In this document: positions 48,477 through 52,352 of the stretch, piece by piece
Layout of the letters: each line of letters begins with the position of its first letter
Numbering within the stretch: position 1 is the stretch's first letter
Source: Paractinoplanes atraurantiacus
GTDB taxonomy: Bacteria; Actinomycetota; Actinomycetes; Mycobacteriales; Micromonosporaceae
Direction: 5' to 3'
NCBI RefSeq assembly: GCF_900215205.1
Contig: NZ_OBDY01000032.1
Span: forward strand, 51,337-115,336
Length of the DNA stretch: 64,000 nt
Notes under the pieces: generated by a model
Seen by the model: the letters and a program-made list of their open reading frames with translations, nothing else
What the model was told of the DNA's origin: nothing
Database searches by the model: none
Translations under genes and position numbers: made by a program

Positions 48477-48811
48477 AGGGTCTCGTAAAGGTAAAGAAAG
48501 TCACAGGCCGATATCGAGAACGCCCTGTTCGGGGGGTCGCCGTTGACCGTTCGGTCAGGTGCCCCTCGGCGAACCGGGGAGGGCGGATTGCCACTTCGTA
48601 ACGAGCGACGTGAACCTCTGTTCCGAGCTTTCCGCGCTGGTTACGTTGCCCTCGTAAGACCTGAGAACTTCTTGAATCTCTACCGGGCCAGCACTGCCTC
48701 GGTACGGATTTGCGGACCCGACCGATGGCGGTCGTATATATAACGCACAAGGAACCGGGCGGGATGGGTGACCATCCCGCCCGATCTGTCTGTGCAGGTA
48801 GTTTTGAGCGC
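48477..48811 (+). promoter_or_regulatory. 335-bp intergenic region with menG promoter and leader hairpin
   Basis: Contents: GTCTCGTAAAGG twice in tandem (48468-48491, overlapping the mqnC stop); a TGACCG-TT-CGGTCA palindrome of TetR-operator type at 48544-48557; a TATATATAAC run with -10-like TATAAC (48739-48744), without a clear -35; and a 12-bp perfect hairpin CGGGCGGGATGG (48756-48767), loop GTGA, partner 48772-48783. The hairpin would be in the menG leader about 30 nt before the start. No further gene was seen. Confidence 0.55.
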
Positions 48812-49507
48812 GTGACGCGCGCAGATCTGGACAAGCAGCCGCATGAGGTCGCCGAGATGTTCGACGGCGTGGCCAAGCGGTACGACCTGACCAACACGGT
48901 GCTCTCCTTCGGGCAGGACCGTGGCTGGCGGCGGGCCACCCGCGCGGCGCTCGGTCTGCGGCCGGGGGAGCGGGTGCTCGACGTAGGCGCCGGCACCGGG
49001 GTCTCCACCGAGGAGCTGGGCCGGTCGGGCGCTTTCGCGGTCGGTGCGGATCTGTCCGTCGGCATGCTGCGGGTGGGGCGTCAGGCCCGGCCGGTGGTGC
49101 CGCTGGTGGCCGGCGACGCGCTGAAACTGCCGTTCCCGGACGGCACGTTCGACGCGGTCACCATCTCCTTTGCGCTACGCAACGTGGTCGACACCGGCGC
49201 TGCGCTGCGTGAGCTCGGCCGGGTGACCCGTCCCGGCGGGCGCCTGGTGGTGTGCGAGTTCAGCCACCCGACGAATGGGCCGTTCCGCACCGTCTACTTG
49301 CAGTACCTCATGCGCTCGCTGCCGGCGGTGGCGCGGACCGTGTCGAGCAACCCCGACGCGTACGTCTATCTCGCCGAATCGATTCGTGCCTGGCCGGATC
49401 AGGAGGCCTTGGCCGGGCGCATCGCGGCGTCGGGATCGTGGGGCCGCGTCGGCTGGCGGAACCTGACCGGCGGCGTCGTCGCGCTCCACCGGGCCACTCG
49501 TCTCTAA
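48812..49507 (+). CDS. menG: Demethylmenaquinone methyltransferase
   Basis: MenG (UbiE family) adds the final methyl group from SAM to demethylmenaquinone. The 231-aa protein has the family start [25 protein letters not shown] (in parts), SAM motif [10 protein letters not shown], the UbiE motif [17 protein letters not shown] and the ALRNVVDTG and [12 protein letters not shown] segments. GTG 48812 gives the usual homologue start; an ATG at 48764 within the leader hairpin would add 16 residues. It ends the menaquinone pathway begun by MqnA and leads towards the quinone-dependent nuo genes 1.8 kb later. Confidence 0.93.
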
Positions 49508-49564
49508 AGGGGACAAGTCGCACGTTTCCGCCCATCTACGGCGAGTTCCTGTTTTCCTCGGAGA

Positions 49565-49813
49565 ATGACCACTTTCGGGCATCTCGAGGACACCGACATC
49601 GACATCGCGATCGACGACCGTGACGCCGGCGAGCGCCGTGGCATGGAGCTGGCCGCCCGTATCCGAATGGTGGCCGCTCAAGATCCTGAGCTGGCACAAG
49701 ATCTCGTCGAGCAGTTGATCTCCGCGTTGGAGAAGGCGACCGGCGGTACCTTCCGTCAGTTCCTGGACTCCGAGGGGGAACCGTCCGTCAATTCACCGGA
49801 CCGAAACAGTTAG
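49565..49813 (+). CDS. Small acidic protein of unknown function
   Basis: I do not recognise it. The 82-aa product is acidic (TDIDIAIDDRDAGE) with two predicted amphipathic helices (RRGMELAARIRMVAAQDPEL and AQDLVEQLISALEKA). It has no signal peptide or membrane segment. The ATG at 49565 follows CGGAGA very closely, so the start is provisional. It lies between menG (57 nt) and the Rex-like operator of the MenJ-like gene, on the same strand. A small regulatory or adaptor role is possible. Confidence 0.65.
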   Translation: MTTFGHLEDTDIDIAIDDRDAGERRGMELAARIRMVAAQDPELAQDLVEQLISALEKATGGTFRQFLDSEGEPSVNSPDRNS

Positions 49814-49870
49814 GGTTCCCTTACCCGAACGAGCTTCGATGGCCGTCTTAGACTCCGACTTGGGCGCGCT

Positions 49871-49886
49871 TGTGAACTGTTTCACG
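49871..49886 (+). promoter_or_regulatory. Near-consensus Rex operator upstream of the MenJ-like gene and nuo genes
   Basis: TGTGAACTGTTTCACG matches the S. coelicolor Rex operator pattern TGTGAAC-N3-TTCACA at all but the last base. It lies 26 nt upstream of the MenJ-like start and just after a -10-like TAGACT (49849-49854), where a bound repressor would block transcription. Rex releases DNA when NADH rises. Rex sites control nuo operons in Streptomyces. Confidence 0.75.
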
Positions 49887-49911
49887 AGCCGCTGCGAGAC
49901 GGAGGTGTGGT

Positions 49912-51207
49912 GTGCGCAACGAGGTACTATCCGGTCCGATCGCCGACGAAGCGGATGTGATCGTCGTCGGGGCAGGGCCGGGCGGGTCCGCGGCCGCTTA
50001 TCACATGGCGCGCCACGGCTTGCGCGTTCTGCTTCTGGAGAAGACCGAGTTCCCGCGCGAGAAAGTGTGCGGTGACGGTCTGACCCCGCGCGCCGTCCGG
50101 CAGCTGGTCCGGATGGGCGTCGACACCTCCGAGAAAGCCGGCTGGCTGCACAACCGCGGCCTGCGGGTGATCGGCGGCGGCGTCCGGCTCGAGCTCGACT
50201 GGCCCGACCTGGCCAGCTTCCCCAACTACGGCCTCGTGCGCACCCGGCTCGACTTCGACGACATGCTGGCCAAGCGCGCGGTCGAGGCCGGCGCCATTCT
50301 GCGTACGTCGGTGAACGTGACCGGCCCGGTGCTCGACGACGACGGCCACGCGATCGGTGTCGAGGCCAAGGTCGGCCCCGGCAAGGAGCCCGTGCAGTTC
50401 CGGGCGCCCCTGGTCGTCGCCGCCGACGGCGTCTCCGGCAAGCTGCCGCTCGCCATGGGCCTGACCAAGCGCGACGACCGGCCGCTCGGCGTGGCGGTCC
50501 GGCGCTACTACACCTCGCCCGTGCGGGCCGACGACGACTACCTCGAGTCCTGGCTGGAGCTGCGCAGCTCCGAGGACTCCTCGCGCCTGCTGCCCGGCTA
50601 CGGCTGGATCTTCGGCATGGGCGACGGCCGGGTGAACGTCGGCCTCGGCATCCTCAACTCGTCCAGCGCCTTCGGCAAGACCAACTACCGGTCGATGCTC
50701 ACCGACTGGCTGGCCGGCACCCCGGCCGACTGGGGTTTCCGCGACGAGGCCAACGCGGACGGGCCGATCCTGGGCGCCGCGCTGCCGATGGGCTTCAACC
50801 GGGTGCCGCATTACACGCGCGGTCTCATGCTGGTCGGCGACTCCGGCGGCATGGTCAACCCGATGAACGGCGAGGGCATCGCCTACGCCATGGAGTCGGG
50901 TGAGCTCGCGGCCGAGGTCGCGGTGCAGGCGCTGGCCCGGCCCGAGGGCGCCGATCGCGAGCGTGCGCTGCGGGCGTACCCGTCGGAGCTTAGTCTGCGG
51001 TTCGGCGGCTACTACCGACTCGGCGGAGTGTTCGTGAAGCTCATCGGCAACCCGCAGATCATGCGGATCGCGACGAAGCACGGCATGCCGCATCCGACGT
51101 TGATGCGGTTCGTTCTGAAACTGCTGGCCAACCTCACCGACCCGCGCGGCGGTGACGCGATGGACCGGGTCATCAACGGCCTGACGAAGGTGGCTCCGGC
51201 CGTCTGA
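49912..51207 (+). CDS. menJ: Geranylgeranyl reductase family flavoprotein, probable menaquinone reductase MenJ
   Basis: The 431-aa FAD protein has the dinucleotide site VVGAGPGGSAAAYH (from residue 18), the C-G-D-G-L-T-P motif after REKV, a GDSGGMVNPMNGEGI FAD motif and a C-terminal GG reductase tail. The family saturates isoprenoid double bonds; MenJ in mycobacteria reduces one double bond in the menaquinone side chain. Position between menG and nuoA favours menaquinone over other isoprenoids. GTG 49912 has GGAGG 6 nt upstream. A Rex-like operator precedes it. There are 76 nt before nuoA that may hold a second promoter. Confidence 0.85.
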   Translation: MRNEVLSGPIADEADVIVVGAGPGGSAAAYHMARHGLRVLLLEKTEFPREKVCGDGLTPRAVRQLVRMGVDTSEKAGWLHNRGLRVIGGGVRLELDWPDLASFPNYGLVRTRLDFDDMLAKRAVEAGAILRTSVNVTGPVLDDDGHAIGVEAKVGPGKEPVQFRAPLVVAADGVSGKLPLAMGLTKRDDRPLGVAVRRYYTSPVRADDDYLESWLELRSSEDSSRLLPGYGWIFGMGDGRVNVGLGILNSSSAFGKTNYRSMLTDWLAGTPADWGFRDEANADGPILGAALPMGFNRVPHYTRGLMLVGDSGGMVNPMNGEGIAYAMESGELAAEVAVQALARPEGADRERALRAYPSELSLRFGGYYRLGGVFVKLIGNPQIMRIATKHGMPHPTLMRFVLKLLANLTDPRGGDAMDRVINGLTKVAPAV

Positions 51208-51283
51208 CCCGTACCCCCGCTAGACCAAGAACAAATCGGACGAATAGTGTAATACGGCTAATAGTCGAAGCAGGAGTCCTGAG

Positions 51284-51649
51284 ATGTCGGTCAACCCATA
51301 CGTCCCGATCGTCGGGTTACTCATCCTCGGCGCGCTCTTCGCGTTGTTCTCCGTGTCGATCGCGCCGATCGTCGGTCCACATCGCTACAACCGCGCCAAG
51401 CTCGACGCGTACGAATGTGGCATCGAGCCCGCCCCGCAACCCGTCGGCGGCGGCCGGTTCCCGGTGAAGTTCTACCTGACCGCGATGCTCTTCATCATCT
51501 TCGACATCGAGACCATCTTCCTCTATCCGTGGGCCGTCTCCTTCAACGCGCTCGGCCTGTTCGGCTTCGTCGAGATGGTCCTGTTCATCGTCACGGTCTT
51601 CATCGCCTACACCTACGTGTGGCGGCGTGGCGGCCTCAACTGGGACTGA
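51284..51649 (+). CDS. nuoA: NADH-quinone oxidoreductase subunit A
   Basis: NuoA is a small membrane subunit near the quinone channel of complex I. The 121-aa protein has three helices and the family motifs [15 protein letters not shown] and [19 protein letters not shown] 51284 follows AGGAG. It is the first of twelve nuo genes visible here in the standard order A to L. The 76-nt gap after the MenJ-like gene is long enough for its own promoter, but it has no Rex-type palindrome. Confidence 0.96.
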
Positions 51650-51683
51650 TCCGCGGCAACTGGTCTTAACAGGAGACACAGCC

Positions 51684-52352
51684 ATGGGAATCGAAGAGAA
51701 ACTACCGGCCGGCATCCTGCTGACCTCCGTCGAGAAGTTGTCGAACTGGGCCCGCAAGTCCTCGTTCTGGGGTGCCACCTTCGGACTGGCCTGCTGCGCC
51801 ATCGAGATGATGGCGGCCGGCGGTCCGCACTACGACCTCGGTCGCTGGGGCATGGAGGTCTTCCGGGCCTCGCCCCGGCAGGCCGACCTGATGATCGTGG
51901 CGGGCCGGGTGAGCCAGAAGATGGCGCCCGTCGTCCGCCAGATCTACGACCAGATGCCCGAGCCGCGCTCGGTGATCTCGATGGGCGTGTGCGCCTCGTC
52001 CGGCGGCATGTTCAACAACTACGCGATCGTGCAGGGCGTGGACCACATCGTGCCGGTCGACGTCTACCTGCCCGGCTGCCCGCCGCGGCCGGAGATGCTG
52101 ATCGACGCCATCCTCAAGATGCGCGAGAAGGTGATGGCCCAGCCGCTCGGCCCCAACGGCCGCAAGATGCTCGAGCAGCGCAAGGCCGAGGGCAAGGTGC
52201 CGGTCGTCGCGCCGGGCGCGATGCCGTCGTCGTACCGCGTCGACAAGGTCCGCCGGGCCGAGTGGACGCAGGCGGTCAAGGAAGGCCGCGAGGAACAGCT
52301 GCGCATCGAGAACTGGATGAAGCTGCAGCCGCACCTGCGGGAGGGCAAATGA
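51684..52352 (+). CDS. nuoB: NADH-quinone oxidoreductase subunit B
   Basis: NuoB carries the terminal iron-sulfur cluster N2 that reduces quinone. The 222-aa protein has the tandem cysteines C37-C38 in [10 protein letters not shown], plus C103 ([11 protein letters not shown]) and C132 (PGCPPRPE). The last 45 residues (after [10 protein letters not shown]) form a basic/acidic extension that is longer than in minimal NuoB. ATG 51684 follows AGGAG and its stop overlaps nuoC (ATGA). Confidence 0.96.

Follow-up and report, generated by a model that had tools for sequence, protein, structure and literature searches.

Our results suggest that positions 49810-49911 of the window form a composite promoter of a menJ-nuo unit, which would be blocked by Rex and is likely activated by IdeR. 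We put the probability of this reading at roughly 0.7. The Rex and IdeR sites together probably make the production of complex I and of a quinone-modifying enzyme depend on iron supply as well as redox state. The proposal is built on the sequence of the region and its conservation, on the fixed spacing of its elements, on the presence of rex and ideR genes, and on an operator whose position tends to follow the gap between menJ and nuoA. The window is the whole 64,000-nucleotide stretch that was analysed, and it comes from a genome of 10.9 Mb. The order on its plus strand is menG, an ORF of 82 amino acids, the MenJ-like gene and nuoA, and the features are as follows.

48710..49507, plus strand: menG/ubiE, demethylmenaquinone methyltransferase (NCBIfam NF001241, 384 bits, cut-off 327)
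49565..49813, plus strand: ORF of 82 aa in the menG-menJ interval; its stop codon overlaps the iron half-site
49810..49823, no strand assigned: predicted IdeR/DtxR-type half-site, TTAGG-GTTC-CCTTA, one mismatch to TTAGGNNNNCCTAA, 25 bp 5' of the -10
49849..49854, plus strand: -10 hexamer TAGACT (TAGACT in 59/77 sequences, TACACT in 18/77)
49870..49887, no strand assigned: predicted Rex operator TTGTGAACTGTTTCACGA, 15 bp 3' of the -10 and 24 bp 5' of the start codon
49901..49905, plus strand: GGAGG, likely ribosome-binding site, judged from the sequence
49912..51207, plus strand: MenJ-like flavoprotein of the geranylgeranyl reductase family, 431 aa, GTG start at 49912
51245..51250, plus strand: TAGTGT, conserved -10-like element in the menJ-nuoA gap, possibly an extra nuoA promoter
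51284..51649, plus strand: nuoA, first complex I gene (NF005922, 207 bits, cut-off 155)

The true start of menG may lie 3' of 48710. The ORF at 49565-49813 had no match in Pfam or NCBIfam; homologues of it were seen in Actinoplanes-like relatives and a few others, and went undetected in nearly all Micromonospora loci.

MenJ is the menaquinone reductase of mycobacteria and belongs to the geranylgeranyl reductase family. The protein encoded here had been called MenJ-like by an earlier, sequence-only reading of this DNA. The family assignment stood (TIGR02032, 249.7 bits, cut-off 158.8), but the protein cannot be certified as MenJ, as it scored 236.7 bits with the MenJ equivalog model NF045655, under the cut-off of 700. 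It shares its family with mycobacterial MenJ, and its gene adjoins menaquinone genes, but it differs from the mycobacterial enzyme in falling under the equivalog cut-off. The closest named record among the best 80 of 571 relatives is a MenJ-like protein of Paractinoplanes deccanensis (98% identity).

The sequence-only reading placed a Rex-type site at 49871-49886, and the 16-mer TGTGAACTGTTTCACG lies at exactly this position, with the -10-like TAGACT just before it at 49849-49854, as that reading had also noted. The full 18-base operator TTGTGAACTGTTTCACGA at 49870-49887 differs by a single mismatch, where up to two were allowed, from the 18-base consensus TTGTGAANNNNTTCACAA, the motif used for Rex of Streptomyces avermitilis (PMC5355995). 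The 64-kb window by itself would not reveal the operator, since the 16-mer with up to three mismatches matched five times within it, no excess over shuffled sequence (mean 4.37). A motif scan of the whole genome, which the earlier reading had proposed and which we ran with the 18-mer, was more telling: 51 places matched with up to three mismatches vs 15 for the reversed pattern, and the 16-mer with up to one mismatch gave 6 places vs 1 for the control. At one mismatch the 18-mer has three places in the whole genome, and these precede rex itself, a WhiB-family gene and the menJ gene described here. The WhiB-family gene (84 aa, minus strand, Pfam Whib E 2.9e-27) is a candidate wblE counterpart, and we read the gene after rex as a putative hemA. 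The Rex targets reported as verified in S. avermitilis include rex-hem, wblE and nuo (PMC5355995). The genome contains one rex gene (a single PF06971 hit, 69.5 bits), and the protein passes the NCBIfam model NF003992 (355 bits, cut-off 226).

Conservation of the operator was followed in the best 80 of 571 confirmed relatives, which comprise 76 Micromonosporaceae and 4 Streptomycetaceae loci. A one-mismatch operator stands before menJ in 76/76 Micromonosporaceae loci, beginning 15-80 bp 5' of the codon that corresponds in the alignment to the first residue of the MenJ-like protein. Across the same 76 regions the reversed pattern reached three mismatches in 1/76 and never fewer, and block shuffles reached three mismatches in 5/1520 and never fewer. 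Within the half-sites, variation is confined to two positions: position 2 is T in 75/76, and position 17 is G in 73 loci, T in 2 and A in 1. The four spacer bases are variable. The single mismatch at position 17 (TTCACGA) is itself kept in 73/76 loci, and it is mirrored in Longispora (L080). Genome counts, conservation in the Micromonosporaceae and the controls rule out a chance match, and 49870-49887 looks like a real, strongly conserved Rex binding site. The observation that no Rex-like palindrome precedes nuoA extends to the family: in each of the 76 loci, nothing closer than four mismatches was found in the menJ-nuoA gap and the final 150 bp of menJ. The four Streptomycetaceae loci have no operator before menJ (best match, six mismatches) and a two-mismatch operator that starts 63-119 bp before nuoA.

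Placement before menJ is the commoner arrangement among the actinomycetes sampled. Of 118 genomes in a class-wide sample, 112 had a match, and 80 regions were used, taking for each genome its best-scoring match if this reached about 470 bits and leaving out weaker matches, second copies, split fragments and the window's own genome. An order-wide sample of 140 genomes contributed 62 loci; excluded from it were the genomes of family f2, the majority of further genomes belonging to the window's family, and some from the remaining families. An operator with up to two mismatches precedes menJ in 65/80 class-wide loci. In the 142 wider loci it stands before menJ and/or nuoA in 131, namely before menJ only in 101, before nuoA only in 24 and before both in 6; it was found at neither place in 11, although nuoA was out of reach in 8 of these, and the menJ upstream region of L217, counted among the 11, runs off the end of a contig. 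The menJ side (107/142 with up to two mismatches) compares with 0/142 for the reversed pattern and 1/710 for shuffles, and the nuoA side (30/134) with 0/134 and 0/670. The sequence-only reading had remarked that the site precedes menJ rather than nuoA itself, and such a placement is not unusual (101/142 loci menJ only vs 24 nuoA only); a placement peculiar to this genome is ruled out by the two samples. The exceptions, with placement before nuoA, are the Streptomycetaceae, family f44, which is probably Pseudonocardiaceae, and part of family f45. Family f17 we infer to be Streptomyces-like.

The position of the operator tends to follow the distance between the two genes. Loci with it before menJ only have a median menJ-nuoA gap of 86 bp (maximum 445), whereas with an operator before nuoA only the median is 600 bp and the minimum 150 (Mann-Whitney p 1e-12 with relatedness ignored; the loci are related by descent and the counts are not independent). 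The trend is also seen within f45, where gaps of 150-238 bp go with an operator before nuoA (4 loci) and gaps of 24-93 bp with one before menJ (3 loci). Exceptions, with the menJ placement in spite of a wider gap, are nine f16 loci (115-422 bp) and one f36 locus (445 bp). The simplest reading is that the operator would have to cover nuo, and would include menJ when both genes lie on one transcript. Thus, the trend supports the shared menJ-nuo switch that the sequence-only reading had put forward.

That reading missed a second conserved site in this promoter, an IdeR-type iron half-site. When the promoters were aligned, a palindrome, TTAGG-N4-CCTAA, appeared 5' of the -10 (searched for as TA[GC]ACT). 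Compared with TTAGGNNNNCCTAA, the 77 sequences (76 loci and the window) are exact in 38 cases and have one mismatch in 31, two in 7 and four in 1. With up to one mismatch the half-site is present in 68/76 loci, vs 1/76 for the reversed control and 6/1520 for shuffles. The distance from its end to the -10 is 25 bp in 70/77 and 26 bp in 4/77, and that from the -10 to the Rex operator is 13-16 bp among the 77 sequences. After near-identical loci were removed, a TANNNT stood at 25 bp in 20 loci and at 26 bp in 3, 23 in all, with only one elsewhere across 69 offsets. In the aligned promoters no conserved -35 element was apparent and no TTGACA-like, sigma-70-type match was found. The genome has one DtxR/IdeR gene by PF02742, and its product scores 323.7 bits with NF053665 (cut-off 290). 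The exact half-site pattern occurs at 4 places in the genome vs 1 for the control, but with up to one mismatch it is not enriched genome-wide (17 places vs 30). The four exact copies lie at genes for a siderophore transporter, an FAD reductase, a DUF3159 protein and an aconitase. The FAD reductase looks like FprA, its NCBIfam matches being weak and to related models only. The copy at L108:1501-1514 precedes the gene for aconitase, another iron-sulphur enzyme. Neighbours of 8 of the 13 one-mismatch copies are mixed, with an FTR1 iron permease among 10 proteins. Thus, the genome counts alone do not support the half-site; its conservation and spacing do.

The Rex operator is much wider spread than the half-site. 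Both occur together, the half-site with up to one mismatch, at 30/142 wider loci: 5/5 of the window's own family, 3/4 in f35, 1/6 in f36, 1/2 in f37, 5/5 in f43 and 15/20 in f44. The other families of this 142-locus sample yielded no such pair, and outside the window's own family most loci with a Rex operator before menJ are without a half-site. Of 28 non-redundant half-sites before menJ or nuoA in the wider sample (4 from the own family, about half from f44), all but 1 are followed by a TANNNT, which starts 24 bp 3' of 1 half-site, at 25 bp for 8 of them, at 26 bp for 15 and at 37-39 bp for 3. It thus falls at 24-26 bp in 24/28, against a background of 298 of 83,241 positions. In six f44 loci (L249-L253 and L255) the half-site lies 3' of Rex operators and keeps its 25-26 bp to the -10. 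In three f34 loci (L247, L272 and L273) the half-site and -10 stand before nuoA and the Rex operator before menJ, so that the two sites are separable. In both the f44 and the f34 arrangements, then, the half-site moves together with the -10 rather than with the Rex operator. In one genome (G069, locus L216), an exact half-site lies 24 bp before a TAGACT 5' of menJ and the Rex operator is absent there; Rex of this genome is 50% identical to that of the window's genome.

The menJ and nuoA genes of the window lie on the same strand, 76 bp apart (51208-51283), and Rex could in principle govern menJ alone, with nuo expressed mainly from a promoter of its own in this gap. We regard this as unlikely. 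A -10-like TAGTGT does lie 35-91 bp before nuoA in 68/77 loci; its fuller form, A[AC]TAGTGT[GTA]A, is present in 67/77 menJ-nuoA gaps (the window, L008-L082 and L085), and among non-redundant copies CC is found exactly 30 bp 5' of TAGTGT in 21/21 and a third C in 20/21. The three f34 loci with a half-site and -10 right before nuoA, and the nine f16 loci whose operator stays at menJ across wider gaps (115-422 bp), point the same way. Against Rex control of menJ alone stands the behaviour of the operator, which seems to follow nuo, being often before nuoA where the gap is long (24 loci with this site only, 6 with both) and switching sides with the gap within f45. Additionally, in three loci of one genus of the window's own family (L288-L290) only 3-4 bp separate the menJ stop from the nuoA start, and the ribosome-binding site AAAGGAGG sits within the end of menJ, so that a nuoA promoter between the genes is hardly possible there. 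No terminator-like site was found in 51208-51283, and across 49500-51700 there were two terminator-like matches, both within menJ and at about the level of shuffles. The single redox switch of the sequence-only reading is partly supported: the gap trend and the 3-4 bp spacing favour one operator for menJ and nuo. TAGTGT is likely an additional, Rex-free nuoA promoter with an upstream element; Rex bound at menJ would not block it, and the switch may be partial.

Each of the two palindromes before menJ might also belong to a different regulator or be used differently. The core of the one at 49870 is compatible with a Crp-type pattern and could be a Crp/Fnr-family site (TGTGA-N6-TCACA) instead of a Rex site, which we consider very improbable. 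The inner AA and TT pairs, which a Crp site would leave free, are the same in 76/76 Micromonosporaceae sites, and among 65 class-wide sites AA is kept in 65/65 and TT in 64/65. We rejected the Crp-type site on these invariant pairs. Moreover, rex itself is preceded by a one-mismatch site. A search for rex covered 80 genomes, the window's own plus 79 class-wide ones (G004 left out), and found it in 77/80. Where it went undetected, two genomes (G006 and G019) are without a menJ operator, and the third, G059, which has one, is an incomplete genome (94% complete, 380 contigs). The palindrome at 49810 leaves more room for doubt. IdeR is mainly known as a repressor, and the site could serve IdeR in that role or belong to another regulator; we give this somewhat less than an even chance. 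It would fit with the lack of genome-wide enrichment and with the f44 half-sites that lie 3' of Rex operators. However, in several families the distance to the -10 varies by no more than about one base, also at those f44 loci, and no -35 is seen. A repressor would not need such a fixed spacing, which points to an activator. Two of the four exact copies are at siderophore transporter and aconitase genes, and DtxR of Corynebacterium glutamicum has been reported as both repressor and activator (PMC1382209). We therefore favour IdeR as an activator at this promoter, with the following model.

We propose that RNA polymerase would use the -10 TAGACT and start at about 49861. When NADH/NAD+ is low, Rex would bind at 49870-49887, which corresponds to about bases 10-27 of the transcript, and block transcription. 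As NADH accumulates, Rex would be released, and the MenJ-like reductase and complex I could be made, complex I coming from the menJ promoter by presumed read-through into nuo. The second part of our model concerns iron. One IdeR-Fe2+ dimer may sit on 49810-49823, centred about 44 bp 5' of the start, where it would most likely aid the binding of polymerase (proximal activation) at a promoter in which no -35 is recognised. When iron is sufficient, IdeR would thus support initiation, and the iron-sulphur-rich complex I could be made. The fullest form of the model, to which we give close to even odds, is that the IdeR-Fe2+ dimer on its half-site replaces the missing -35, with Rex downstream as a brake, so that both iron and NADH would be needed, and that this applies in many actinomycetes.

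Family f2, which is probably the Mycobacteriaceae, differs in its arrangement. Its best matches to the window's MenJ-like protein are about 35-41% identical, and no menJ homologue lies within 1.5 kb of any of the 24 nuoA places in 21 f2 genomes (2 of the 24 are distant NuoA relatives). At these places no Rex operator with up to three mismatches was found, and a half-site with up to one mismatch was seen at 2/24, neither with a -10-like hexamer 15-43 bp 3' of it. Three more half-sites had two mismatches, each with a -10-like hexamer 30 or 32 bp 3' of it. An induction of nuo by iron has been mentioned for mycobacteria (PMC8464063). We considered the half-site module as its source and found no supporting arrangement in f2.

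The closest known system on the redox side is nuoA1-N1 of S. avermitilis, where a Rex operator in the complex I promoter has been reported from gel shift, ChIP, footprint and deletion-mutant data (PMC5355995). That site lies directly 5' of nuoA (footprint -42 to -16), whereas the window's lies before menJ, and it has two mismatches to the consensus where the window's has one (PMC5355995). Because its position appears to be 3' of the start, the window's site would instead resemble that of S. avermitilis cydA1, with a footprint of -3 to +25 (PMC5355995). On the iron side, IdeR of Saccharopolyspora erythraea is reported to bind a nuo half-site as a single dimer with an apparent KD of 102 nM (PMC8464063). 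The same paper proposed TTAGGNNNNCCTAA as the half-site consensus and stated that the role of IdeR at half-sites was still to be investigated (PMC8464063). The S. erythraea nuo site and ours are alike in having a half-site of the TTAGGNNNNCCTAA type at complex I genes; the main text of that paper mentions neither Rex nor menaquinone (PMC8464063). What distinguishes the window is that a Rex operator accompanies the half-site 5' of menJ, with a fixed spacing from the half-site to the -10. Rex has also been reported in Saccharopolyspora spinosa, with no nuo operator given in the passages covered (PMC4172946), and the main text of a transcription-start paper on Actinoplanes SE50/110 is without nuo, NADH and Rex (PMC7682106). 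Among the open-literature matches listed, judged by titles and the starts of abstracts, none joined Rex and IdeR at nuo, and none joined Rex and a geranylgeranyl or menaquinone reductase at nuo. A comparative study of the Rex regulon was reportedly made by Ravcheev et al. in 2012.

Rex control and IdeR binding at nuo were thus previously known each from a different actinomycete. New here are the presence of both sites in one promoter, their fixed spacing and the extension to a quinone-modifying enzyme. If the model is correct, the supply of complex I would be linked to iron and redox state jointly, and IdeR as a -35 substitute would answer what IdeR does at half-sites. Rex control of this operon was established at the Streptomyces nuo promoter, whose layout is not the one met most often among the genomes sampled.

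Two further observations concern Rex operators at other places. In family f44, 16/20 loci (L249-L253, L256-L263 and L265-L267) have two Rex operators before nuoA, 32 bp apart, or about three helix turns. In the window's genome, TGTGAACGAGTACACA at L004 (G000:C40:391099-391114), with one mismatch to the 16-mer and three to the 18-mer, lies right before a gene that looks like one for polyphosphate kinase 2.
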